From NCBI RefSeq assembly GCF_900113955.1, contig NZ_FORH01000003.1, positions 372,001 through 436,000 on the forward strand: a stretch of 64,000 bases of DNA. The letters are read 5' to 3'. The notes beneath the pieces were generated by a model, which did not search any database, had not been told where the DNA came from, and saw only the letters and a program-made list of their open reading frames with translations. The DNA comes from Celeribacter neptunius. Lineage in GTDB: Bacteria; Pseudomonadota; Alphaproteobacteria; Rhodobacterales; Rhodobacteraceae. Made by a program: the position numbers and the translations under genes. Shown here piece after piece: positions 22,056-32,883 of the stretch (position 1 is its first letter; every line of letters begins with the position of its first letter).

Positions 22056-22180
22056 CCGACGACCTCTCTTTTGTCCCGGCAACGCCCCCCACCAAAGGAA
22101 GTGCACCACTGTCACTTCTTCACCAAAACATGAGATTGGGTCACAAACCTGACGATCAGGTCGTTTTCGTCTGACGTTCA

Positions 22181-22209
22181 ACTTGGAGAGTAATGGCGCG
22201 CTGGGGAGG
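22181..22209 (+). repeat. island attachment site, distal copy
   Basis: A 29-bp copy of the tRNA-Arg 3' end and the bases following it, matching 32794-32822 at 28 of 29 positions (T/C difference at the eleventh base). Similarity stops abruptly after it, so the tRNA itself is not duplicated. Confidence 0.85.
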
Positions 22210-22280
22210 CGAAGATTAACATGAAGAACACGGCCAACATATTGAAATAAAACAATAAGTAAAGATGGAAAGTTTACCCC

Positions 22281-22301
22281 GTGTCCCCATTTGTGTCACC
22301 T
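22281..22301 (+). repeat. possible integrase arm-type site, left
   Basis: This 21-bp sequence ending TTTGTGTCACCT matches 32729-32749 at 18 of 21 positions in the same orientation. One copy lies 72 bp inside the left end and the other 44 bp inside the right end, the place expected for tyrosine-integrase arm sites. The rest of 22210-22608 is AT-rich and shows no gene. Confidence 0.45.
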
Positions 22302-22608
22302 AAATGTGCAAAGATATCTGCCTAAGACGTCACAGAATTCCACCTCCTCCGCGATTCTTAAAATTGTCACTTAACCAATTGTTTTTTATCGATTTATTGC
22401 AGATCCTGTCTGATCATTCCATACATGTCTGTTTTGAAAAGGCACCTCTTCACTTCGTAAGGTTTTATGAGGGTGCTTGCTCCACAATTGTTGGTCTTTC
22501 CAAGACTTGCTGTCCGTCTCTTCGTCCCATGGTTGGTTAAGGTTTGCCTTGACGTTCTGTTCTTGTCCGTCTCAGACTGGCAGCGGTGGTGGACGAAGTG
22601 ATTTTTCG

Positions 22609-23139
22609 ATGAGTTTGAAAGGGTGGAGCATGCTCGCATTCGCGGGCTTCGTTGGACTTGGGGTCATCGGTGGCGATGGCAGTGGTTCGTCCGATCACGC
22701 AGTGGCTCCTTCAGACGCAAGCGCAGCGTCTCCCATCCAGACTCAGCGTTCCCTTTATGTGACTGGCAATTCTGTCAATGTCAGAGAGGGGCCAAGCACC
22801 ACTTATCGAAAGATAGGCCAACTTAGCCGAGGACAGGTTGTTCACGAAATTGATCGAAGCAACGGTTGGGTGAAGCTCTCATTCAAAGGGCAGGTTGGCT
22901 GGATGTCTGGCAAGTACCTGAGTTCGAGCAAACCGAAAGCAAGTGTAAGGTTCGCGACATCTAGCAGCAGTCCCAAATGTCACCCCAACTACAAAGGCGC
23001 ATGCGTGCCCATTGCTAGCGATGTGGATTGCGCTGGAGGTAGAGGGAATGGTCCGGCCTACGTGCAAGGGCCCGTCCGTGTCGTGGGGAGAGATGTCTAC
23101 GGTTTAGACCGTGACAATGATGGAATAGGCTGCGAATAG
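22609..23139 (+). CDS. exported SH3-domain/Excalibur protein
   Basis: 176 residues from the ATG at 22609; the longer open frame upstream has no ribosome site. The N-terminus carries a hydrophobic signal segment (about residues 8-22). An SH3b domain follows (VTGNSVNVREGPSTTYRKIG to VGWMSGKYL, about residues 48-100). The C-terminus is an Excalibur domain with DVDCAGGRGNGP and DVYGLDRDNDGIGCE, where the D-x-D-x-D-G-x-x-C motif binds calcium and cysteines pair. Such proteins act in the cell envelope, binding peptidoglycan. It is island cargo on its own transcript. Confidence 0.75.
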   Translation: MSLKGWSMLAFAGFVGLGVIGGDGSGSSDHAVAPSDASAASPIQTQRSLYVTGNSVNVREGPSTTYRKIGQLSRGQVVHEIDRSNGWVKLSFKGQVGWMSGKYLSSSKPKASVRFATSSSSPKCHPNYKGACVPIASDVDCAGGRGNGPAYVQGPVRVVGRDVYGLDRDNDGIGCE

Positions 23140-23212
23140 ACCTGCTTTGGGGCTTACGCCTTATTCCTTCCGGCGTCGCTGTGCCTTGGCCCCCTTGATG
23201 ACCTTCAAGGCA

Positions 23213-24634
23213 TCAGTTGCATTCGATCTGAACAGTAAACGTTTGCGCTTCTTCAGCAAGTTGGGGGCCGTTCATCGCAGAAGATGTATCTGAAATGACG
23301 GGCTCCACCCCGTTGAGGGAAAGGAAGAGTTTTGCAGCGCTTCCGCGAATTGCAAAGTTGATGTTTTGAGGAATGTCTCCAATGACTTCTTGCACAGCTG
23401 CAGCGTCGAGTTTTGACACAACAACACCAACAACCACCCCTTCTGACGACAAGACTGGCCCTCCCGAATTCCCGGGCTGAACAGGAGCGGAGATTTGCAT
23501 GGTCGTTTCATCTCCTCCGAGGCCGGTCATGGAAGAGATTGCACCTCTGGTAACGTTGATGCCTCCGAGCAAGCCTGACAAAGGGTAGCCAACGACAGTG
23601 ATGTCTTGATTCAATTTGGCTACCGTTGGGCTGAACGTGGCTATGGCTTTTGGTTCTGTATTTACCTTTAGAAGGGCCAAGTCGAAATTCTGAGATTGCT
23701 CAACAAGACTTGCGTCCTCACCATCGACCTTCAGAGCCTTGCATTCTTTTACCACGTGGGCGTTGGTGAGGACATGACCAAACTCAGAAACATAAAAGCC
23801 CGAGCCTGAACTGGTCCTATCGCTTCCGTTTGGTTTCTGGCTCTCTTGGTCAGAAGTTTCCGGGGGGACTGAAGCAAGTAATTGTCCAACTTTGCCTGCC
23901 ACGTTCAGCAATCTGCCATTCTCTGGGATGCGTAGGGAGGCATAGCGATCAGTGGTGATGCTTGCAGTCAATGCGGCAAGCAGTTCCTTGTCATATGACT
24001 CTGCTGAAATCATGAGTGTCCCCCAAACCCCGTCGACCAAATTGGTCCTCGCATATAGAGATTTGCCCTGAGAGTTTGTTGCAGAGGTTATGACTAGATT
24101 GTTCTTACGAACCTTGTATGCGTCGCCGCGAACCGCCGAGAAATTTTCGACATATTGATGAAGGTCTCGGGTGCTATTCACATCGCCAAAATGAACAGAA
24201 ATTCCAAGTGAGCTTCCAATTAGGGAGTAGTTCAGGAAGTTCTCCGAGTGTCGCCCTTCGACCAATTGGGTGGACCACAGCATCGAGAAGCCAAGGGGTT
24301 CTTGGAAGGTCATTTCCCATCCCCCTTCAAGCATAAAATCGAGCGCCTCAAGGGACAATGTTACGGCATGAAATTCGAACGGCTCGCTGTCGAATTCCTT
24401 GTTGGCATATTGAGACAGAGCGCGAAAAGATCGCTGACCCCAAGCGCCGTCCAATAGCCCGTTGTAATACCCGTCGAGCGTGAGGCCGAGTTGAATTAAC
24501 CGCAACTCGCTGGTTGAATACCTTCCCGCTTCGAATGGTTGGAATACTTCGTCTTCAGGGGCGGAAAAGGCGCTCGAAATTGAAACGATGAGAATTAACG
24601 CGGCGCGGCGAATGGCGCAATATATTGAATTCAT
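23213..24634 (-). CDS. exported trypsin-like serine protease
   Basis: 473 residues. Signal peptide at residues 1-25 (hydrophobic LILIVSISSAFSA). Residues 37-80 (STSELRLIQLGLTLDGYYNG LLDGAWG) look like a peptidoglycan-binding-type repeat, then a middle domain of unknown fold. The C-terminal half (about 270-440) is a trypsin/DegP-like protease with the triad His in TNAHVV, Asp in NFDLALLK and Ser in PGNSGGPV. No PDZ domain is seen, so it is not a standard DegP. Probably periplasmic. It converges with the SH3/Excalibur gene and may share an envelope role, which is inference. Confidence 0.8.
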   Translation of the reverse strand: MNSIYCAIRRAALILIVSISSAFSAPEDEVFQPFEAGRYSTSELRLIQLGLTLDGYYNGLLDGAWGQRSFRALSQYANKEFDSEPFEFHAVTLSLEALDFMLEGGWEMTFQEPLGFSMLWSTQLVEGRHSENFLNYSLIGSSLGISVHFGDVNSTRDLHQYVENFSAVRGDAYKVRKNNLVITSATNSQGKSLYARTNLVDGVWGTLMISAESYDKELLAALTASITTDRYASLRIPENGRLLNVAGKVGQLLASVPPETSDQESQKPNGSDRTSSGSGFYVSEFGHVLTNAHVVKECKALKVDGEDASLVEQSQNFDLALLKVNTEPKAIATFSPTVAKLNQDITVVGYPLSGLLGGINVTRGAISSMTGLGGDETTMQISAPVQPGNSGGPVLSSEGVVVGVVVSKLDAAAVQEVIGDIPQNINFAIRGSAAKLFLSLNGVEPVISDTSSAMNGPQLAEEAQTFTVQIECN

Positions 24635-24788
24635 GTCACTATCGAGCTTTCGGCTAAGTTCGAAATTTAGAGATTTGCAAGCATGTGCAACGCGGAACTC
24701 GGTTGCTCTAAATTGATCTTTGCATTTATCTGGTCATGCGTCGAGTTGAAGGCGTTTCGGACTATTAGAATTTTTCGGGGGATTAATT

Positions 24789-25298
24789 ATGTCATTCAAA
24801 TTGCGAGCGGGGCTCCTTACTGGGGCGCTGCTTGTGCTTGGTGCCTGTGTGCCAACCACCAGTTACTACCTTTACAATTCGAGAGCCGATGTGTCTCGGG
24901 CGCACAACGATGATTTTGAATGCGATTTGGCGGCAGAAAGATCGGTGCCTCAAGCTCTGCGAGTGGCAACAACGCCAATGTATACAACGCCACAATACAC
25001 GAACTGCTACAAAGTCGGCTATACCGTGCAATGCAATACGACCGGTGGTCAAACATATGGGGGCGACACCTACACATATGATGCGAACAAGAACCTCCGG
25101 AATGAGTATTACGCTCGATGTATGGTCGGCAGAGGTTGGCAGGTCTTTGAAGTCCCGGACTGTGATCCGAAGAAGGTGCCAATGGATTTGCGAGAGAAGT
25201 TGATGGGCAAACTACGCCAGCCGGCAGAAGGTTCTTGTTACATCCAACTCACCGAACGTGCTGGAAATATTGTCTATCCATCAGAGTTGTTGGAGTAG
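24789..25298 (+). CDS. putative lipoprotein of unknown function
   Basis: 169 residues. The N-terminus has a charged start, a hydrophobic stretch and the lipobox VLGAC with Cys at residue 20, so it should be lipidated and anchored in the envelope. The mature part has several cysteines (DFECDLAAE, TNCYKVGYTVQCN, EYYARCMVGRGW, VPDCDPKK), suggesting disulfides. The RCMVGRGW segment resembles those in small outer-membrane lipoproteins that monitor envelope assembly. No family could be named. GGGGGATT before the ATG provides a weak ribosome site. Confidence 0.7.
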   Translation: MSFKLRAGLLTGALLVLGACVPTTSYYLYNSRADVSRAHNDDFECDLAAERSVPQALRVATTPMYTTPQYTNCYKVGYTVQCNTTGGQTYGGDTYTYDANKNLRNEYYARCMVGRGWQVFEVPDCDPKKVPMDLREKLMGKLRQPAEGSCYIQLTERAGNIVYPSELLE

Positions 25299-25308
25299 TA
25301 GCCGAAAG

Positions 25309-25343
25309 GAGAGGCGGCGGGCTCTTTGGCGATGCCGCCTCTC
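25309..25343. terminator. bidirectional terminator
   Basis: GAGAGGCGGC (25309-25318) pairs with GCCGCCTCTC (25334-25343) around a 15-base loop, followed by TTGTCTCTT. It lies between the convergent lipoprotein and resolvase genes and can serve both. Confidence 0.75.
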
Positions 25344-25350
25344 TTGTCTC

Positions 25351-25905
25351 TTAAGTTTGTGCAGACTTGGTAACCCGATAAACAGACCTCTCAGAGATGC
25401 CCAGTGCTTTTGCGATAGCTCGCTTGGTCATCCCCTCTGAGAGCATCCTGTGGACCTCTGGGGCCATGCGCTGGGCGGTTGGGGCGCGTCCTTTGTACTT
25501 CCCCTCCCGCTTGGCCTTAACGATCCCCTCCTTCTGACGTTCCAGCATCATCTCTCGCTCGAACTGAGCCACAGAGCCCAAGACGTTGAGCATGAGCTTC
25601 CCAGTGGCGTTGGAAGTATCCAGTCCGAGATCGAGAATGCGTAGTCCGACGTTCTTTGCTTCCAAGGCCTCTACGATTTCTCCAAGGTGCCTCACCGATC
25701 TGGCCAGACGATCCAGCTTCGTGACGATCAGGGCGTCGCCTTCTCGAAGGTACTCCAGAGCCTCAGAGAGGCCCGTACGGCGGCCTACAGAGCTTGTTTG
25801 CTCCTCCCATATCCTTTCGCACCCAATGGCCCTCAGTGACTCTCTCTGAGCCTCCAAGCCTGCGATCTGTTCCAATGTCGATGTACGTGCGTAGCCGATG
25901 AGCAT
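25351..25905 (-). CDS. serine recombinase (resolvase/invertase family)
   Basis: 184 residues from the ATG at 25905, which has AGGAGGG before it; an upstream in-frame extension lacks support. The N-terminal catalytic domain holds the nucleophile Ser in GYARTSTLEQ (residue 8), then TKLDRLARSVRHLGEIVE and the long dimer helix GKLMLNVLGSVAQFEREMM. The C-terminus is a small helix-turn-helix (TKRAIAKALGISERSVYRV). Length and layout match Tn3-type resolvases and Hin-like invertases. No transposase accompanies it; it may resolve island dimers or act on sites in the AT-rich space upstream. No obvious res site was found. Confidence 0.9.
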   Translation of the reverse strand: MLIGYARTSTLEQIAGLEAQRESLRAIGCERIWEEQTSSVGRRTGLSEALEYLREGDALIVTKLDRLARSVRHLGEIVEALEAKNVGLRILDLGLDTSNATGKLMLNVLGSVAQFEREMMLERQKEGIVKAKREGKYKGRAPTAQRMAPEVHRMLSEGMTKRAIAKALGISERSVYRVTKSAQT

Positions 25906-26300
25906 GACTGCCCTCCTAATCTGCCAATGATGTCTATGAGATTGTGACAGAGCGTCTGCCAAAAGGCGGAGACCACTCCATAGTCCGGCTATCGCACCAT
26001 GCGCTGGGCATGACACGGGACCAAGGTCTATTGGCAGAGATGTAAAGCCAAGAGATCACGAAGTTTTTTGGCATTCAAAGGGGGGCGGGGGTGTTTGAAA
26101 GGCACTTCAAAAAAGAGGGGGTTTATTATTGCTTATTATTGTTCTTTGAAATCGACGGTTTGTGGCTCGATTGACGACTTAGGGCGGAAACCGGACATTC
26201 GCTGCACCATGTTCTGATGTCAGCGAAGCGCAGAGAGCAGACTTTGCGGAGTTAATTGGACTACCGAACGCGCCGTTCATTCCGTCTGGTGTTTCTGCGC
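25906..26300. other. AT-rich non-coding space inside the island
   Basis: No gene found. The middle (about 26075-26150) has G-runs followed by a short tandem TTATTATTGCTTATTATTGTTC and lies between two divergently read genes, so promoters and perhaps the resolvase site are here. Confidence 0.35.
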
Positions 26301-26356
26301 TTGACCTTGCTAATTTTTTGCCCCACAAATGAGAGGGAAAAAATTAACAAGGTCAA
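26301..26356 (+). promoter_or_regulatory. 19-bp inverted repeat before the XRE-ImmA module
   Basis: TTGACCTTGCTAATTTTTT at 26301-26319 is mirrored by AAAAAATTAACAAGGTCAA at 26338-26356, 18 of 19 positions, with an 18-bp spacer. It ends six bases before the ATG at 26362. As DNA it is a strong candidate operator for the XRE regulator encoded two genes on; as RNA it would form a stem that hides the translation start. Confidence 0.65.
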
Positions 26357-26361
26357 CGAGT

Positions 26362-26988
26362 ATGGAATCACTTCGCCGCCAGACTATCAGCAATCCTGTT
26401 GAGCGGGATCAACGTCTTTCTGAACTACAGCTGGAGTGTGATCGACTGATCGCAGCCGGACACCATGCTTTGGCGGGTCGGGCGAGCGCTTCGCCGCTGC
26501 ACCCTTCGAACACCGCTGGCTTCCTATCCTACGCTGACGGTGTGAAGGGGCTTCGCGCAGAGAATATTGATGACAATTGGCGCGTTTTCCGTCGTGAAGG
26601 TGTCGAGGGCATCTGCAACGATGAGCTGAAGCACAGGGTGCTTTTTGCGAACGTATTCGAGGCCTGCGGAGAACGTGACCCCCAAGCCCGCTCTCGCAAA
26701 GGAGCAGGCTCTGAGCGCGTTGCGAGCGGTGATCTCTTTGAAAGTGCAGGAATTGATTTGCCTGACTCGGTGATCAAGTTTCGGGGGGACTACAAAACCT
26801 ACTATCTCATGGTTGATCAAAACGGGGCCATGGAACTCAGCCTTCCCATCGTGAAGGCAGGCGGAAACTTTTTGCGCTGCATCGAACGGATTTTCCTGAT
26901 CGATGGCTCTGACCTTGACGAAGTCGAATTTGGCGTTGATGAACCCGCAGACGATTCCGATCTGGATTTCGTCGTGACCCGGAAATAA
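26362..26988 (+). CDS. unknown protein, partner of XRE-ImmA regulator
   Basis: 208 residues from the ATG at 26362. Another in-frame ATG at 26329 lies in the loop of the inverted repeat and has no ribosome site, so the later one is preferred. The protein is soluble, with an N-terminal helical part (NPVERDQRLSELQLECDRLI), a central region ending FRGDYKTYYLMVDQNGAMEL and an acidic tail (DEPADDSDLDF). I recognise no family. It is only 12 bp from the XRE/ImmA gene, in the position of a toxin or substrate protein controlled by a metalloprotease regulator (inference). Confidence 0.7.
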   Translation: MESLRRQTISNPVERDQRLSELQLECDRLIAAGHHALAGRASASPLHPSNTAGFLSYADGVKGLRAENIDDNWRVFRREGVEGICNDELKHRVLFANVFEACGERDPQARSRKGAGSERVASGDLFESAGIDLPDSVIKFRGDYKTYYLMVDQNGAMELSLPIVKAGGNFLRCIERIFLIDGSDLDEVEFGVDEPADDSDLDFVVTRK

Positions 26989-27000
26989 CGTGAAACTACT

Positions 27001-28128
27001 ATGTTCAGCAGCAAAAGGCTCAGCCTGGCCAGGAAACGGCGCAGGCTGACGGCAAAAGGTCTCGCCCAGGAAGCAGGAGTATCACCTGTCACGATAACCC
27101 GTTTGGAGAACGGCCAAAATGAGGCTGTTCCTGAAACAGTGGAGAAGTTGGCGGAAGCTCTCGGTTACCCGACTGTTTTTTTCTACCAAGAGGATCAATC
27201 TGCGCTAACCAAGGAAGTCGTAAGCTTCCGAAGCCTAAAGAGCATGAGCGCCAAGGAACGCGACGCGGCATTGTCGGCGGGAGAAATTGGTGTGGAAGTC
27301 TATTCGTGGCTCGACGGCCACTTCAACCTTCCTGATCTTGATCTTCCTCCATTTGATCCCGAACTTACACCTGAGACAGCTGCAGAAGCCTTGCGGCAAC
27401 ATTGGGGTCTCGGGTATGAGCCTATCCCAAACCTCCTCAAGCTGCTTGAGGCGAAGGGAATTCGCGTTCTGGGCTTGGAGGAGAACACCGCGAACGTTGA
27501 TGCATTCTCCTTCTGGGAAGACGGGCGCGCCTATGTCTTCTTGAACTCGTATAAGTCAGCGGAACGCAGTATCTTCGACGCGGCACATGAACTGGGCCAC
27601 CTTGTTTTACACAAGCATGGCACAACGCCCGTTGGAGCGAAAAACAGCAAGGAGCCAAATCCTTTCGAAGACTCTCGAAATGTTGAGGTAGAGGCAAACA
27701 GATTTGCGGCGGCGTTCTTGATGCCAGAGGAAGACGTGCGTTTACGCCTGCCTCGCTTCATTACAGCAGATGTCATCATCAAGGCCAAAAGGCGTTGGAG
27801 GGTTTCAGCAATGGCCCTCGCCTATCGCGTCCACCATTTCCAACGACCGATGCTGACAGAGTGGCAATACCGGTCGATCTGCATCGAGCTTGGCAAGCGG
27901 GGATACCGCAGCGGGGAACCAGAGGGCATCCCCCGAGAAAGCTCTGTCCTCTGGAAGATGGTGCTGTCCGAGCTGTGGTCTGATCGCAAAAATCTCCGGC
28001 ACATTGCGGACGATTTGGCTCTGCCTGTTGGTGAAGTCGAAATGCTGCTTTCGGGGATTTTGCCTCAAGCAGATAGGGCCGAAGTGAGCGGGGGTGGCAA
28101 TCGTCCAGCTCTGCGACTTGTTAAATAG
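27001..28128 (+). CDS. XRE regulator fused to ImmA/IrrE metalloprotease
   Basis: 375 residues. The N-terminal XRE helix-turn-helix (residues about 5-60) shows LTAKGLAQEAGVSPVTITRL. The ImmA/IrrE (M78) domain follows with the zinc motif HELGH in FDAAHELGHLVLHKHG near residue 200 and a later EVEANRFAAAFLMP that supplies the third ligand. A C-terminal extension of about 100 residues (AMALAYRVHHFQRP...) is typical of these fusions. Such proteins control phage, ICE or toxin-antitoxin modules, cutting a partner on damage or infection. The 12-bp spacing to the preceding unknown gene suggests one operon. Confidence 0.9.
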   Translation: MFSSKRLSLARKRRRLTAKGLAQEAGVSPVTITRLENGQNEAVPETVEKLAEALGYPTVFFYQEDQSALTKEVVSFRSLKSMSAKERDAALSAGEIGVEVYSWLDGHFNLPDLDLPPFDPELTPETAAEALRQHWGLGYEPIPNLLKLLEAKGIRVLGLEENTANVDAFSFWEDGRAYVFLNSYKSAERSIFDAAHELGHLVLHKHGTTPVGAKNSKEPNPFEDSRNVEVEANRFAAAFLMPEEDVRLRLPRFITADVIIKAKRRWRVSAMALAYRVHHFQRPMLTEWQYRSICIELGKRGYRSGEPEGIPRESSVLWKMVLSELWSDRKNLRHIADDLALPVGEVEMLLSGILPQADRAEVSGGGNRPALRLVK

Positions 28129-28263
28129 GCACTGGCTGCCTCAGAGAGAGCAAACTCTTGAGAGAGCTACTCGTTCCTGAACCTTCAGTTCGGATCAATT
28201 TCAGAGATGGATGATTTCGACATTGCCCATTTTTGGTCGAGGTATTCGGCCAAGAGGCGGCGG

Positions 28264-28476
28264 TGACAGGGTAATCCCCCCATTTTTAATGGGGCCCAGC
28301 CGTAGAAATCACGCGGCTGCTTTCAGTTTCATGGCGGGTGTCATTCCGCCGATGCCCATGTTGGGTCGCTCGTTATTGTAAGTCCAGAGCCATTCGGTTG
28401 CCTGGTCCTGTGCCTCCTCGATGGTTTCAAAAATGAACTGCCCCAGCCATTCGCCGCGAACCGTTCGGTTGTAGCG
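28264..28476 (-). mobile_element. IS3-family terminus and transposase tail
   Basis: Minus-strand frame: YNRTVRGEWLGQFIFETIEE then TYNNERPNMGIGGMTPAMKLK and stop at 28309, the C-terminal 55 residues of an IS3-family OrfB. A terminus starting TGACAGGG with a CCCCATTTTTAATGGGG hairpin lies at 28264-28295. The rest of the element is missing; the frame passes straight into an RHS gene fragment. The 135 bp between this end and the XRE-ImmA stop hold no gene. Confidence 0.7.
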
Positions 28477-28797
28477 CATAGGATTGGAACTCGCGTAATT
28501 ATACACACTCGGCCCATCGACCAACCCCAACGGATCGGCCTCGATATACCGCCCCGTCGTCGGATCGTAGTCCCGCATCCAGTTCTGGTGCAAGCCGCTT
28601 TCGGCCTGGAACCATTGTCCCGGAAACCGCGCGTCGATCACGCCGTTTTCCACATGCACACCGCCAAACGGCAGCCAGGACGCCGTCCACACCGTGGTGC
28701 CCGCCTCATCGGCGGCGAGCACCGGCCGACCAATGTGATCCGAGCGCACGAAATAAATATTGTCACCCTCAAGCACCGCAATCGGCGCGCCCAAGCA
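28477..28797 (-). pseudogene. RHS repeat core fragment
   Basis: About 107 residues of the conserved RHS-associated core: VLEGDNIYFVRSDHIGRPV, then WLPFGGVHVENG, RFPGQWFQAESGLHQNW and YIEADPLGLVDGPSVYNYA. In a full RHS protein this stretch comes just before the variable toxin tip. Here it has no upstream RHS repeats and its downstream toxin has been replaced by an IS3 transposase tail in the same frame. It begins inside the end of the putative immunity gene, in another frame. Confidence 0.8.
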
Positions 28798-29305
28798 AAT
28801 GGCCATCCTCGTCGCGCTTGCCACCGAAATAGCGCCAGTGCTCAATAGCTTCGATGACAGCTCTGAAATCCTGACACGGGGGGAGGTCAATTTCCCGATC
28901 GGCGTCTTTGTTACTTTTGTGCGACAGGATTGCCTGCATTATCTTTTGCTTAAAATCTCCCAGCGAAAGCTCTTCGCAAGACTGGATATTCGGACCGTAG
29001 TAAACGACGGAAGATAAAGGCCAAAAAAGCAATGACGGCAAGACCAGGCTCTCCAAAATCACCTTGATGATTGAAGTGGTTTTCAGACGACAAGGGCCCC
29101 TCTCGCCGTCATAGCAAAAGCATCGACCACCAGCGTCGAAGAGCAAGCCGGTGCTGAACTTCGCCTTGCTCGGCAACCTGAACAACGTCGTGAACCCAGA
29201 CCGTCGATAGACAACGTCCATGGTCGAGAATTCTTTTCGCTCAGGAAGTTCGATCCAGAACAGCGGATATATGAAATCGCGTTGGAAATCAGAGTTGTGC
29301 GACAT
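28769..29305 (-). CDS. putative immunity protein of the RHS toxin tip
   Basis: 178 residues from the ATG at 29305; a TTG at 29317 overlapping the toxin stop is an alternative. No family is recognised. There is a hydrophobic stretch in the middle (VILESLVLPSLLFWPLSSVVYY), so it may be membrane-attached. The call rests on position: it directly follows an RHS C-terminal tip and precedes a displaced RHS core, the usual place of an immunity gene. The last ~10 residues overlap the RHS core fragment and may have been changed by the recombination. Confidence 0.55.
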   Translation of the reverse strand: MSHNSDFQRDFIYPLFWIELPERKEFSTMDVVYRRSGFTTLFRLPSKAKFSTGLLFDAGGRCFCYDGERGPCRLKTTSIIKVILESLVLPSLLFWPLSSVVYYGPNIQSCEELSLGDFKQKIMQAILSHKSNKDADREIDLPPCQDFRAVIEAIEHWRYFGGKRDEDGHLLGRADCGA

Positions 29306-29313
29306 GAAGTGAT

Positions 29314-29742
29314 TCAATTCTTACCTGTGGCGACATTCACAGCGCCGCCAACGGCACCACCAGTCACCCAGCCGGGTGTCCGTACTACCGAGCGAACAGG
29401 AGCAGGCCACATGTCAGCTGCTTTCACCCCTTTAATGCGGCGGTAGTAGTCGGTCATAGCGTGAGTCCTCGGGGTAACATAGTTCCCATTTAGCTTGCGG
29501 AATGGGGATTTTTCAAAGGCTTTAGCCCAACTTCTTGTCTTATATGCGCGCCACGGAATGGCATGTGAAAACTCTGTCCCAGCCCGGCGCCATGTCGTCG
29601 CCGCGAAGCCTGCGCCAGAAAACACGACTCCCACCAGAGCATCGGTTGCAGCTTCTCCCCAAGTGTAGCAGCCATCGCCCCAGATCTGATCAGCAACATA
29701 TCCGGACGCAACACCAACCGCTGCACCATATGCGGCAGCCAC
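29314..29742 (-). pseudogene. RHS C-terminal toxin tip lacking its RHS core
   Basis: 142 residues from a GTG that immediately follows an in-frame stop, with no RHS repeats upstream. It opens with the glycine/alanine-rich linker seen just after RHS cores (GAAVGVASGYVADQIWGDG, then WGEAATDALVGVVFSGAG) and continues into a basic, probably toxic domain (HAIPWRAYKTRSWAKAF, LNGNYVTPRTHAMTDYYRR). The toxin family could not be named. Without a core and export signal it cannot be delivered, so it is an orphan tip that may only serve as a recombination reservoir. Confidence 0.65.
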
Positions 29743-29930
29743 TGCTCATCCAGCCGATGTCCGCTTTGGGCCGAGAGTTACGCTTGCGTTTGCCAAGCAA
29801 AACCGCCCCTCTTACGCCTAATAGTATCGTGTTAAGTTGTTGGAGAGTACCTAAGGAGACTTGGAGTTGCCCCAAACCATGTAGGCCTATACCCCCTCCT
29901 ATAAAGATATACCTAGGGATAGGGGTACCC

Positions 29931-31301
29931 CTAGGCTGCTTTAGACTGGTCTAAGGGAGAACTCTCCCTCACGACCGGAGCAAATCCAAACCTCTGCATA
30001 TAGCTTCGAGCAATGGCGAATTTTGCTGTCTCTGCCTGCCTCTTCTTTACGATCAAGCTATCGTGGATGGGGAGTGATGGGCATTCAAGTTCGAAGATGA
30101 GCCTTTCCATGGCGTCAAGTATGCACTCCGACTCCTCGTACTGAAGAGATGCCCATTGGGGGCGAGTAAATGCCCTCTCAAGTATAGGATGAAGCTTCAG
30201 AACTTCATCGAGAACCTGATTGAAAGAGAATTGGAGCGGGAAGCCCTCCTTTTTCAGGAATTTCTCTTTGTTTCCTCGAGGCCAGCGACTTGGGACTGTC
30301 GAGCTGCCAAAGATCATAACAACAGCCTGTTTCATGGCTGCACGGGGAATTCTCTTTGAGGCATAGGGATCAACTTCGTGCTTCAACTCACGCCCATTCA
30401 TCGCGTACCAGATGAACAGATGACTTGCCCGAACATCGACTTCGACAGTTTCTTCCCCGTCGATCCGAATTTGGCTGCGTTCTGATTTGTGCATGTTTAG
30501 CCAATTGTGCCCAGAGGCCGCATAAAGCCTGCCCTCTTGATCAAAGGAGTATGTCTTTGAAATAGCATTGCTGAAATGCCTTTGGATTCTTGGTTTTGTG
30601 GTCAGAGAAAATTCATATTCAGCGAGTGCAGCATTCAACTTATCTATTCGTTGGCACTCAGCCAGATAGGCAGGCGTGTTTAGAAGCGACTTTTCAGGCG
30701 GCAAGTGCTGGCTGCGCCCATTCCGCCCTTTGCCAACCATTTCCCCTTTGAGGCGTACAGAGGGACTACGGCCAATGTCCTCCGAAAAATGGTTTTCATC
30801 GTCTTCAAGGGAAATCCTGTGTTCTTTTGCGATCTCGAAGAATTGCTGGGTTGCCCTATAGCGACTGGCATAGCCGACTTCATTAATCCCTTGGATTCTC
30901 TGGCCTTCCCAAGTCGATGGTTTTTGGCTGCCTTTGATCCTGTCCACCAAATCCATTTCAGGCCATGTCGCGATGACCATTTGGAAGTTGTCATGGGTTG
31001 CAAGCGTCTCTTTCAGCGCCTCAGGGTCAGAGGGCCGATACATGAAGCCTTCGGCCCCGTTCTTCTGGGAATGGAGTAGAAGGTCCGCTGCAAATGCCCC
31101 AATGGTTGCCTTGATCGAAGGGATGTCCTTTTGTTTCGGGCGTCGTTTGCGAGTCTGGGTCTTAAGCTGATGTTCAATGGTCAATTCATAGAGGCGATTC
31201 ACAAAGGCGTTCGCCGCATTGGATGAGGGGTAATGTCTGAGCGTCGCCATCTCGGCGGCGTTGAGAATAGATTTATCAAAGTCGCTGCCTTTGAGAAGCA
31301 A
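29931..31301 (-). CDS. predicted family-A-like nucleic acid polymerase
   Basis: 456 residues from a TTG with AGGGA before it; an ATG at 31250 is an alternative. Not a known annotated family to me. Three motifs in the right order resemble the palm of family A DNA polymerases and T7-type RNA polymerases: motif A ETVEVDVRASHLFIW (Asp), motif B RAAMKQAVVMIFGS (R-x3-K-x6-FG, one residue shorter than Pol I) and motif C LPIHDSLIV (His-Asp-Ser, as in T7 RNA polymerase). Neither a 5'-3' nor a 3'-5' exonuclease domain is visible. It follows the integrase by 69 bp and is probably co-transcribed with it. An inverted repeat CCTAGGG/CCCTAGG overlaps the stop. Polymerase activity is inference. Confidence 0.55.
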   Translation of the reverse strand: MLLKGSDFDKSILNAAEMATLRHYPSSNAANAFVNRLYELTIEHQLKTQTRKRRPKQKDIPSIKATIGAFAADLLLHSQKNGAEGFMYRPSDPEALKETLATHDNFQMVIATWPEMDLVDRIKGSQKPSTWEGQRIQGINEVGYASRYRATQQFFEIAKEHRISLEDDENHFSEDIGRSPSVRLKGEMVGKGRNGRSQHLPPEKSLLNTPAYLAECQRIDKLNAALAEYEFSLTTKPRIQRHFSNAISKTYSFDQEGRLYAASGHNWLNMHKSERSQIRIDGEETVEVDVRASHLFIWYAMNGRELKHEVDPYASKRIPRAAMKQAVVMIFGSSTVPSRWPRGNKEKFLKKEGFPLQFSFNQVLDEVLKLHPILERAFTRPQWASLQYEESECILDAMERLIFELECPSLPIHDSLIVKKRQAETAKFAIARSYMQRFGFAPVVRESSPLDQSKAA

Positions 31302-31370
31302 TTCGGTTTCCCTTGTATTTTGTCATCGTGTGCTTGCAACGTCGAGAAAGCTTCGAACGTCCCTCAAGCC

Positions 31371-32705
31371 TTAATCTCTGGTGTCGAGGACAATTTTCTC
31401 CAGCCACTCTGCTTTCACAGAGAGCGATGCCCCTCGTCCATATCTCTGCCCCGCAGATCGAGCAGACCAGCCACCAACCTGATCAATGATCTCTTCCGGT
31501 GCATTCACATCTCTGAGGCGGTCACGGATTGAATGCCGGAGGCTATGCATCGTTTTATCAATGCCCTGAGCTCTGACCCACTTAGCAATCGCATTTGAGG
31601 CGCTTGTTGCCTTGAAGTCCCCCGGTACCGCGTACTTGGGCCAGACGTATTCTGACTTGGTATTTGCAACTATGCGCTGGGCAGCCCAAAGCGCAGCACC
31701 AACCAAAGGCACCTCTCTCGTTGATCGAGCCGTCTTCAGGTCGCGAACGTCACTTTCTCGGATGGAAACGTAAGGAACCTCACCCAAAGAAAAGTCGGTG
31801 ACTTTCAGGCCAATCGCTTCCCCAAGCCGAAGGCCAGTATCCGAGATGAGTGCAACCGCCCAGCGCAATGAGTCATCCCTTTCAATGCAAATTTTTTGCA
31901 ATTGGGATATCTCATTGATTGTAAATGGCTCCCGAACGACTGAGTCGCTCTTTGGCAGAACAATATTTTCGAAAACGTGTGGACCCGGAAGCCCATTTTC
32001 AGCGAACGCATAGCGTAACACCGGAGTGAGGTAGTTCAAATAGCGCTTCACTGTGGCGACCTTATTCCCATCATCGAGCAATTTTCGAACAAAGCCATTT
32101 GCCTCTTCACGCTCATACCGATCAACCGGCCTATCTGCTGAATAGGCAAAAAACCGGTTTACCGCATTCCAGCGTGCTTTTCCCTTCTTCGACTTGGGGT
32201 CTTCTCTCTTCGCTGCTTGGTATTGACTGACTGCCTCGGAGAACAATGGCGACAACTTCTCACCAAGGAACAGGTCGTAAGCGAGGTTTACATACCCCGG
32301 AGTGCGCTCCCGAACATATGCAGGCTCACCATATTGGCCCGTTTCCCGGCAGAGGAACTTAATTTCATCCATGAACTCATCCGGCCAAATACCGGCTGCA
32401 TCGTATTGAACCCTATCCCCGGGGTTTAGACCGTACGCCTCCAAAAATGCATATGCTGCTTGACGCTCCTCTGGTCCTAAGAGGTTTACGTCACCGCGAC
32501 GAGCTTTCCATAAAGCATCTTGGCGTAATGCGTGCTCATGAGCCCGTCTTGCGGCCTCAGCCTGAGAGCGTGTTTTCAGAGAAAAGAATAGGACGTCTCG
32601 TCTTTCTGGATAGAGAGTGCGCACATCGTCGGGAATTCTTCTTCGGAAATACCAGACGCCTTTGCGGTTCTGAAGATACTTAGCTTCCAAACGGAAGGCT
32701 CCCAT
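31371..32705 (-). CDS. tyrosine-type site-specific integrase
   Basis: 444 residues from the ATG at 32705; a GTG at 32747 would add 14 residues. The C-terminal catalytic domain shows the first Arg in ISDTGLRLGEAIGL, His-x-x-Arg in MHSLRHSIRDRL and the nucleophile Tyr in WSARSAGQRYGRG. The N-terminal part has the ALRQD/DVRTLYPERR features of DUF6538-type integrases of Rhodobacteraceae islands (family named from memory). It ends transcription toward the polymerase-like gene and starts about 100 bp from the tRNA-Arg 3' end, so it is the integrase of this island. Confidence 0.93.
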   Translation of the reverse strand: MGAFRLEAKYLQNRKGVWYFRRRIPDDVRTLYPERRDVLFFSLKTRSQAEAARRAHEHALRQDALWKARRGDVNLLGPEERQAAYAFLEAYGLNPGDRVQYDAAGIWPDEFMDEIKFLCRETGQYGEPAYVRERTPGYVNLAYDLFLGEKLSPLFSEAVSQYQAAKREDPKSKKGKARWNAVNRFFAYSADRPVDRYEREEANGFVRKLLDDGNKVATVKRYLNYLTPVLRYAFAENGLPGPHVFENIVLPKSDSVVREPFTINEISQLQKICIERDDSLRWAVALISDTGLRLGEAIGLKVTDFSLGEVPYVSIRESDVRDLKTARSTREVPLVGAALWAAQRIVANTKSEYVWPKYAVPGDFKATSASNAIAKWVRAQGIDKTMHSLRHSIRDRLRDVNAPEEIIDQVGGWSARSAGQRYGRGASLSVKAEWLEKIVLDTRD

Positions 32706-32728
32706 CTCGAATAGTATTAGTGACACGT

Positions 32729-32749
32729 GTGTATCCCTTTGTGTCACCT
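32729..32749 (+). repeat. possible integrase arm-type site, right
   Basis: Matches 22281-22301 at 18 of 21 bases in the same orientation, between the integrase start and the attachment core. The flanking GTGACACGTGT makes a partial inverted repeat with it. Confidence 0.45.
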
Positions 32750-32793
32750 CACAGGCAACCCAAAAGTCTCTAAGTCACTGATATTATTTAAGA

Positions 32794-32822
32794 ACTTGGA
32801 GAGCAATGGCGCGCTGGGGAGG
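32794..32822 (+). repeat. island attachment site, tRNA-proximal copy
   Basis: Covers the last 16 bases of tRNA-Arg including the encoded CCA and 13 bases beyond. Repeated at 22181-22209 with one mismatch. Integration here leaves the tRNA gene whole. Confidence 0.85.
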
Positions 32823-32883
32823 ATTCGAACCCCCGACCCCTTGATTCGTAGTCAAGTACTCTATCCAACTGAGCTACCAGCGC
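32807..32883 (-). tRNA. tRNA-Arg (anticodon ACG)
   Basis: 77 bases including an encoded CCA. Acceptor stem GCGCTGG/CCAGCGC, anticodon stem CTTGA/TCAAG with loop CTACGAA (anticodon ACG), and the T loop TTCGAAT closed by a G-rich stem. Its 3' end is the attachment site of the island. Confidence 0.95.

Follow-up and report, generated by a model that had tools for sequence, protein, structure and literature searches.

The TV-Pol family of polymerases was predicted in 2008 by Iyer, Abhiman and Aravind (PMC2579912). It is defined by a bi-helical thumb, an absolutely conserved hairpin arginine, an RRM-like palm with two Asp residues, and fingers carrying an Asp and an RxxxK motif, and its members were predicted to be active as primases and polymerases. 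The branch with an N-terminal domain adjoins lambda-type integrases, gamma-delta resolvases or transposases in restriction-modification (R-M) hot spots. Figure 2 of that paper names Roseovarius nubinhibens and other Rhodobacterales in its legend, and the 2008 set also includes Ma-LMM01 (PMC2579912).

The characterised relative is CcPol-MP. According to the excerpts of PMC7581432 considered here, it is a dNTP primase that requires its MP partner, and its authors stated in 2020 that they knew of no biochemical characterisation of any other TV-Pol. The excerpts of PMC10061031 discuss replication, second-strand synthesis and defence as roles of such island primases. As far as their excerpts go, PMC10853773 and PMC7824862 cite the 2008 paper in the reference list only, and PMC11348598 mentions TV-Pol once. 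Among titles and abstract starts, no description of the alphaproteobacterial branch was found.

Probable membership of the locus in TV-Pol

The window analysed here, a stretch of 64,000 nucleotides from Celeribacter neptunius, contains next to an integrase gene an open reading frame for a 456-residue protein (Table 1). Three of the four structural features that define TV-Pol were found in it, namely the hairpin arginine, the palm with two Asp and the fingers with Asp and RxxxK. For the fourth, the bi-helical antiparallel thumb, helices are predicted in the AlphaFold2 model. Like the TV-Pols with an N-terminal domain, which are stand-alone proteins of 400-600 aa with Rhodobacterales, R. nubinhibens included, among their hosts, it carries such a domain and no fused nuclease, has the same catalytic Asp pair, hairpin and finger residues, adjoins an integrase and a resolvase on a mobile element, and shares the association with R-M hot spots. 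The R. nubinhibens genome (L116, G759) contains a single protein that our polymerase profile picks up (L116:9410-10792, E 4.8e-132). It lies 101 bp behind an integrase, and its core shares 39-40% identity with the window protein. Paired by species name and by being the single genomic match, it is very probably the published TV-Pol.

Ma-LMM01 gave marginal scores, and was set aside as a clean sequence proof of membership. A profile search of its complete sequence yielded no match at E<=1. When ORFs from part of T7 and from 50 kb of Ma-LMM01 were run through a filter-free hmmsearch, MAP_030 ranked first (E 0.0038, 8.8 bits), and hhalign placed this single sequence on our alignment over 84 columns (P 7.7e-4). 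MAP_030 adjoins two transposase genes, and we infer that it is the published Ma-LMM01 TV-Pol.

The initial annotation had seen in the protein a possible new polymerase family. This reading was rejected because TV-Pol had already been described (PMC2579912). Defining residues, gene context and, very probably, a shared species member all agree with that description, and we conclude from these comparisons that the polymerase very probably belongs to TV-Pol. Considering titles and abstract starts, what may be new is the mapped element, the abundance of the branch, its D5-free context, the suggestion of a winged helix, the sugar-gate substitutions and an integrase fusion.

Table 1. Features of the putative element and of its polymerase, with positions in the window
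Feature	Position	Strand	Evidence or remark
Whole element, about 10.6 kb	22180..32822		att repeats and congener comparison
att direct repeat, far end, 30 nt	22180..22209	+	29/30 identical
SH3 protein, weak Excalibur match, cargo	22477..23139	+	PF08239 E 2.8e-16
Trypsin-like protease, cargo	23213..24634	-	PF13365 E 1.9e-23
Gamma-delta type resolvase (serine recombinase)	25351..26016	-	PF00239 E 2.2e-39
219-aa protein upstream of HTH-M78 gene	26329..26988	+	no Pfam family
HTH and IrrE/M78 peptidase protein, cargo or regulator	27001..28128	+	PF06114 E 9.5e-26
rve transposase ORF, weak RHS matches	28309..28890	-	PF13683 E 9.4e-10; RHS below cut-off
Polymerase gene, TV-Pol-type	29931..31301	-	456 aa, TTG start, open reading frame throughout
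Motif C H413-D414 (in LPIHDS)	30060..30065	-	104/105, 1 gap; partly by construction
Motif B R320-x3-K324, fingers	30330..30344	-	K 89/89, R 87/89 in A4
Motif A Asp289 (in EVDVRASH)	30435..30437	-	105/105
G257-R258, beta-hairpin arginine	30528..30533	-	89/89 in A4; on GR of Pol I
N-terminal domain, residues 12-212	30666..31268	-	MarR-like winged helix predicted (weak)
Tyrosine (lambda-type) integrase	31371..32747	-	PF00589 E 8.7e-13; 69 bp upstream of polymerase, same strand
att direct repeat, tRNA end, 30 nt	32793..32822	+	overlaps 3' end of tRNA-Arg
tRNA-Arg (acg), integration site	32807..32883	-	tRNA scan

Catalytic residues and predicted fold

The protein had no significant match in library scans of Pfam, NCBIfam and PADLOC. 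At E<=10 the sole Pfam match was unrelated (E 0.14), PF00476 (DNA polymerase I) remaining unmatched, and a sequence search of the PDB returned no credible relative. It matched PHROG_4756, a family of unknown function (E 4e-25) that is not mentioned in the literature searched. The annotated absence of an exonuclease domain was upheld: Pfam scans found no nuclease domain in the window protein, nor among the 25 of 35 weakly matched families listed for the 89 aligned members.

These 89 rows (alignment A4), all of which match PHROG_4756, are the window protein and 88 of 104 distinct ORFs from relatives; 3 of 112 loci had yielded no usable ORF. The 16 others, mostly short, very long or fused, were removed by hand, and a few of them (e.g. 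L202, L206, L210, L220) are presumed to be duplicates or contig-edge copies. Motif counts out of 105 take in all 104 ORFs, those 16 included, and the window.

Motifs A, B and C, as annotated from the sequence, follow the GR258 hairpin in the order of EVDVRASH (D289), R320-x3-K324 and LPIHDS (H413-D414), and their conservation among relatives is far above chance. The two Asp residues expected to be invariant were found as such in the 105 sequences, one gap apart, with the reservation that for motif C this is partly by construction: the 80 loci from the genome collection were fetched with the pattern LP[VI]HDS[FLI]I[VI], and one of two viral patterns also contained HDS. In 62 sequences collected earlier by profile or tblastn search, the four residues D, K, H and D were conserved in 61/61, 60/60, 59/59 and 59/59 sequences. 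R258 and K324 were each present in 104 of the 105, with 1 gap, as were H413 and D414. Within A4, G257, R258, R275, D289, Y313, K324, P411, H413 and D414 are invariant, as is the start Met, because start codons force Met; the fingers Asp, D311, is found in 86 of 89 rows.

To compare these residues with known enzymes, A4 was aligned with 30 Pol I proteins by hhalign (P 2.4e-4, 191 columns). R258, D289, R320, K324, H413 and D414 each fell on an identical Pol I residue; an alignment with integrases, used as a negative control, gave P 0.24. Motif B had been annotated as one residue short, which was an over-reading, since R-x3-K aligns without gap with that of Pol I. At K+8, the column of the Pol I O-helix Tyr, Asn (44/89) and Gly (34/89) predominate, so that the aromatic residue is replaced and nothing is deleted. 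At D+5, the column of the Pol I motif A Glu, His (65/89) and Gln (14/89) are found. In the window protein, H294 lies on this Glu, V328 on the Phe and G332 on the Tyr, positions which we take to be E710, F762 and Y766 in E. coli Pol I numbering. The equivalents of E710 and F762 are kept in CcPol, according to the excerpts of PMC7581432, whereas H294 and V328 stand here. Compared to DNA polymerase I, the window protein is of the same fold class, and its motifs A, B and C align in register; it differs by its replaced sugar-selection Glu and Tyr, its lack of an exonuclease and of a PF00476 match.

The resemblance to family A polymerases that had been read from the motifs was borne out by structure prediction and fold search. 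The AlphaFold2 model of the polymerase (pLDDT 90.9, pTM 0.88) gave 40 Foldseek matches in the PDB at E<=0.001, all to family A DNA polymerase entries and with a probability of 1.00; rank 50 was a family B polymerase (E 0.011). Despite these matches, the top rows had a TM of about 0.24-0.32 and an rmsd of 10-18, so there is good support for the fold class but not for the global superposition. A strand is predicted at 256-261, at the hairpin arginine. Against viral models, the best matches included the protein's own relatives in Aeromonas phages 2L372X and 4L372D, and a Rheinheimera phage Barba31A protein named DNA polymerase; a virophage replication protein and phage polymerases came at lower ranks. 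Model and alignments together support a family A-type (palm) polymerase without exonuclease, whose catalytic Asp residues are conserved.

A T7-like single-subunit RNA polymerase, transcribing the island genes, would share the HDS of motif C, as in T7 RNAP, and one of the 89 A4 members does match the RNA polymerase family PHROG_414 (E 0.0046). In the PDB, however, everything matched at E<=0.001 is a DNA polymerase, and hhalign of A4 with five T7-like RNAPs covered only 50 columns around motif C (P 1.5e-3). On profile and fold this reading was rejected as most improbable. With T7 DNA polymerase as a single sequence, P was 0.1.

The N-terminal domain, folded alone, gave an AlphaFold2 model of pLDDT 91.1 that mixes helices with strands and weakly resembles a winged helix, whereas the TV-Pol N-terminal domain was predicted to be all-helical (PMC2579912). 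Foldseek returned no match to it at E<=0.001, the best having E 0.079. Among the 50 matches listed, at least 8 are not winged-helix proteins (EBNA1, Cas6, Alba). Most of the 50 are presumably MarR-type or other winged-helix proteins. A MarR-like winged helix in this domain is a weak suggestion, a lead only. Its alignment (A5) uses 59 of the 89 N-terminal pieces.

Six of 45 loci have, close to the polymerase, a protein of 230-250 aa with conserved Cys/His, an RHGS motif and no Pfam match (cluster 6, for example L105:7772-8503, and 5 further loci). The idea that it is a stand-alone version of the TV-Pol N-terminal domain was rejected (hhalign P 0.5); it is a possible partner of the polymerase.

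The element and the distribution of its polymerase

The initial annotation had placed a stand-alone polymerase on a tRNA-integrated element, and tRNA-Arg, integrase and att repeats are indeed present. Even with up to 3 mismatches allowed, the 25-nt core of the att repeats matches nowhere else in the window, and shuffles gave 0. The tRNA was present in 18 of 19 congener loci. When the 125 bases beside it were compared in these 18, 6 resembled the far-left window flank, none the element, and 12 neither; for the 6 flank-like congeners, at most 2 of 200 shuffles were as good, and BLAST agreed for two congeners (L273 and L278). Repeats and congener comparison together indicate that the island most likely spans 22180-32822.

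Other repeats were noted inside the element. A search for origin repeats gave weak short repeats only. A 21-nt imperfect direct repeat lies inside both ends (22281-22301 and 32729-32749), possibly as integrase arm sites. A 27-nt inverted repeat, 85% complementary, surrounds the start of the 219-aa gene (26301-26356). This orphan and the HTH-M78 (IrrE-like) gene (26329-28128) are a possible regulator or defence pair, and the ORF at 28309-28890 is probably a mosaic of transposase and RHS remnants.

Searched with the single protein, 101 close genomes yielded relatives of the polymerase in 10. With a 13-row profile, the order gave 53 among 292 genomes and the phylum 24 among 398, the polymerase's own genome being included in each count; the family is common in this order. 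From the species genome collection, 184 of 216 pattern matches were confirmed and 80 kept. Among viruses, a first search with the single window protein yielded no relative in 6 stretches. Viral contigs then gave 28 loci from 74 stretches, and 4 from 31, three of these on contigs already found. A phage member used as query matched 58 phage records, mainly Vibrio (36) and Aeromonas (14) phages. Both Vibrio phages searched (L015, L017; ON922990, HQ634156) carry two family members each. Of 12 virus records searched for a conventional DNA polymerase A, 4 had one; ten of the 12 are possibly fragments.

The neighbourhood of 40 polymerase loci was compared with 40 control stretches from set positions in 20 of the same genomes. 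The comparison is tilted towards the polymerase loci, because the HMMs were built from them. Integrases were found in 32 of the 40 polymerase loci (1 in controls), resolvases in 12 (0) and tRNAs in 27 (8). Type III mod and res were each found in 6 (1 and 0, respectively), and a methyltransferase cluster, c7, in 5 (0). The R-M and methyltransferase genes, commoner here than in controls, would fit a part for the polymerase in anti-phage defence, where it would copy RNA or DNA, as the initial annotation had also considered. This support, defence-like cargo nearby, is indirect; no single cargo gene recurs nearly as often as the integrase, there is no PADLOC match, and phages use the polymerase too, as the two Vibrio phages show. 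We regard a defence enzyme as very unlikely, and set it aside.

In a second set, an integrase was present on the available DNA of 53 out of 78 loci. In 12 of the 78 it immediately precedes the polymerase gene on the same strand: 8 times within 330 bp, 3 times abutting or overlapping it, and once as a fusion. The fused case, in Bradyrhizobium japonicum in8p8 (L146:7688-10825), is one 1046-aa ORF with tyrosine integrase and polymerase in frame, which may stem from stop loss or assembly error.

Elsewhere among TV-Pols, a D5 helicase is fused or linked to the polymerase, but here a D5_N profile found no helicase linked to the polymerase in any of the 39 polymerase-bearing genomes checked. D5_N was present in 3 of them, on other contigs or 134 kb away. 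The same difference separates the locus from the CcPol-MP and PolA-SSB primases of SCC and other Bacillota islands. These, too, are family A polymerases encoded by islands that integrate site-specifically and often carry R-M cargo, but in the excerpts of PMC7581432 and PMC10061031 a D5/COG3378-type helicase and an OB-fold SSB partner accompany the polymerase and the recombinase is mostly a large serine recombinase, instead of the tyrosine integrase found here.

A proposed role for the polymerase on its element

Fold class, conserved catalytic residues, likely element ends, resolvase and the family-wide integrase association were computed here. On this basis we consider it rather probable that this TV-Pol is an island-encoded primase/polymerase, the replication enzyme of the 10.6-kb element, copying excised or incoming DNA. 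The process would begin with an island cut out by the integrase or with island DNA newly arrived in a cell. The winged-helix-like N-terminal domain would then bind element DNA, and the polymerase would start and/or extend DNA synthesis on the exposed single strand. The element, copied or made double-stranded, would reintegrate at tRNA-Arg. Replication of the excised island, one role suggested by the initial annotation, is close to what had already been proposed for TV-Pols. In favour of a replication role, CcPol-MP is a dNTP primase in the excerpts of PMC7581432. Against it stand the lack of a linked D5 helicase in 39 genomes, the 12 of 18 congeners that resemble neither flank beside the tRNA, and sugar-gate residues unlike those of Pol I and CcPol.

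The lack of a linked D5 helicase would also suit an enzyme that acts on island DNA taken up as a single strand, through competence or conjugation, and makes from it the duplex needed by the integrase, with no replication of an excised circle. Such second-strand synthesis is proposed for SCC PolA-SSB primases in the excerpts of PMC10061031, and agrees with the position of the integrase in 12 of 78 loci, immediately upstream and on the polymerase strand. No transfer gene was recognised among the scanned element proteins, however, and we consider this alternative unlikely.

Beyond the favoured role as replication enzyme of the element, a more specific version can be formulated, which we judge rather unlikely: a one-protein starter with an unusual His/Gln sugar gate, sometimes fused to the integrase, in which a winged helix recognising the element is attached to a family A palm able to initiate synthesis de novo with neither a helicase nor an SSB partner. 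If it were true, the fusion would couple recombination and copying physically.

The family has so far been unrecognised by Pfam, NCBIfam and PADLOC, and among the matches listed its phage relatives are mostly annotated as hypothetical. PHROG_4756 carries no functional name, and the present result suggests one. With a defined 10.6-kb element and its likely ends, the 2008 TV-Pol prediction becomes directly testable.
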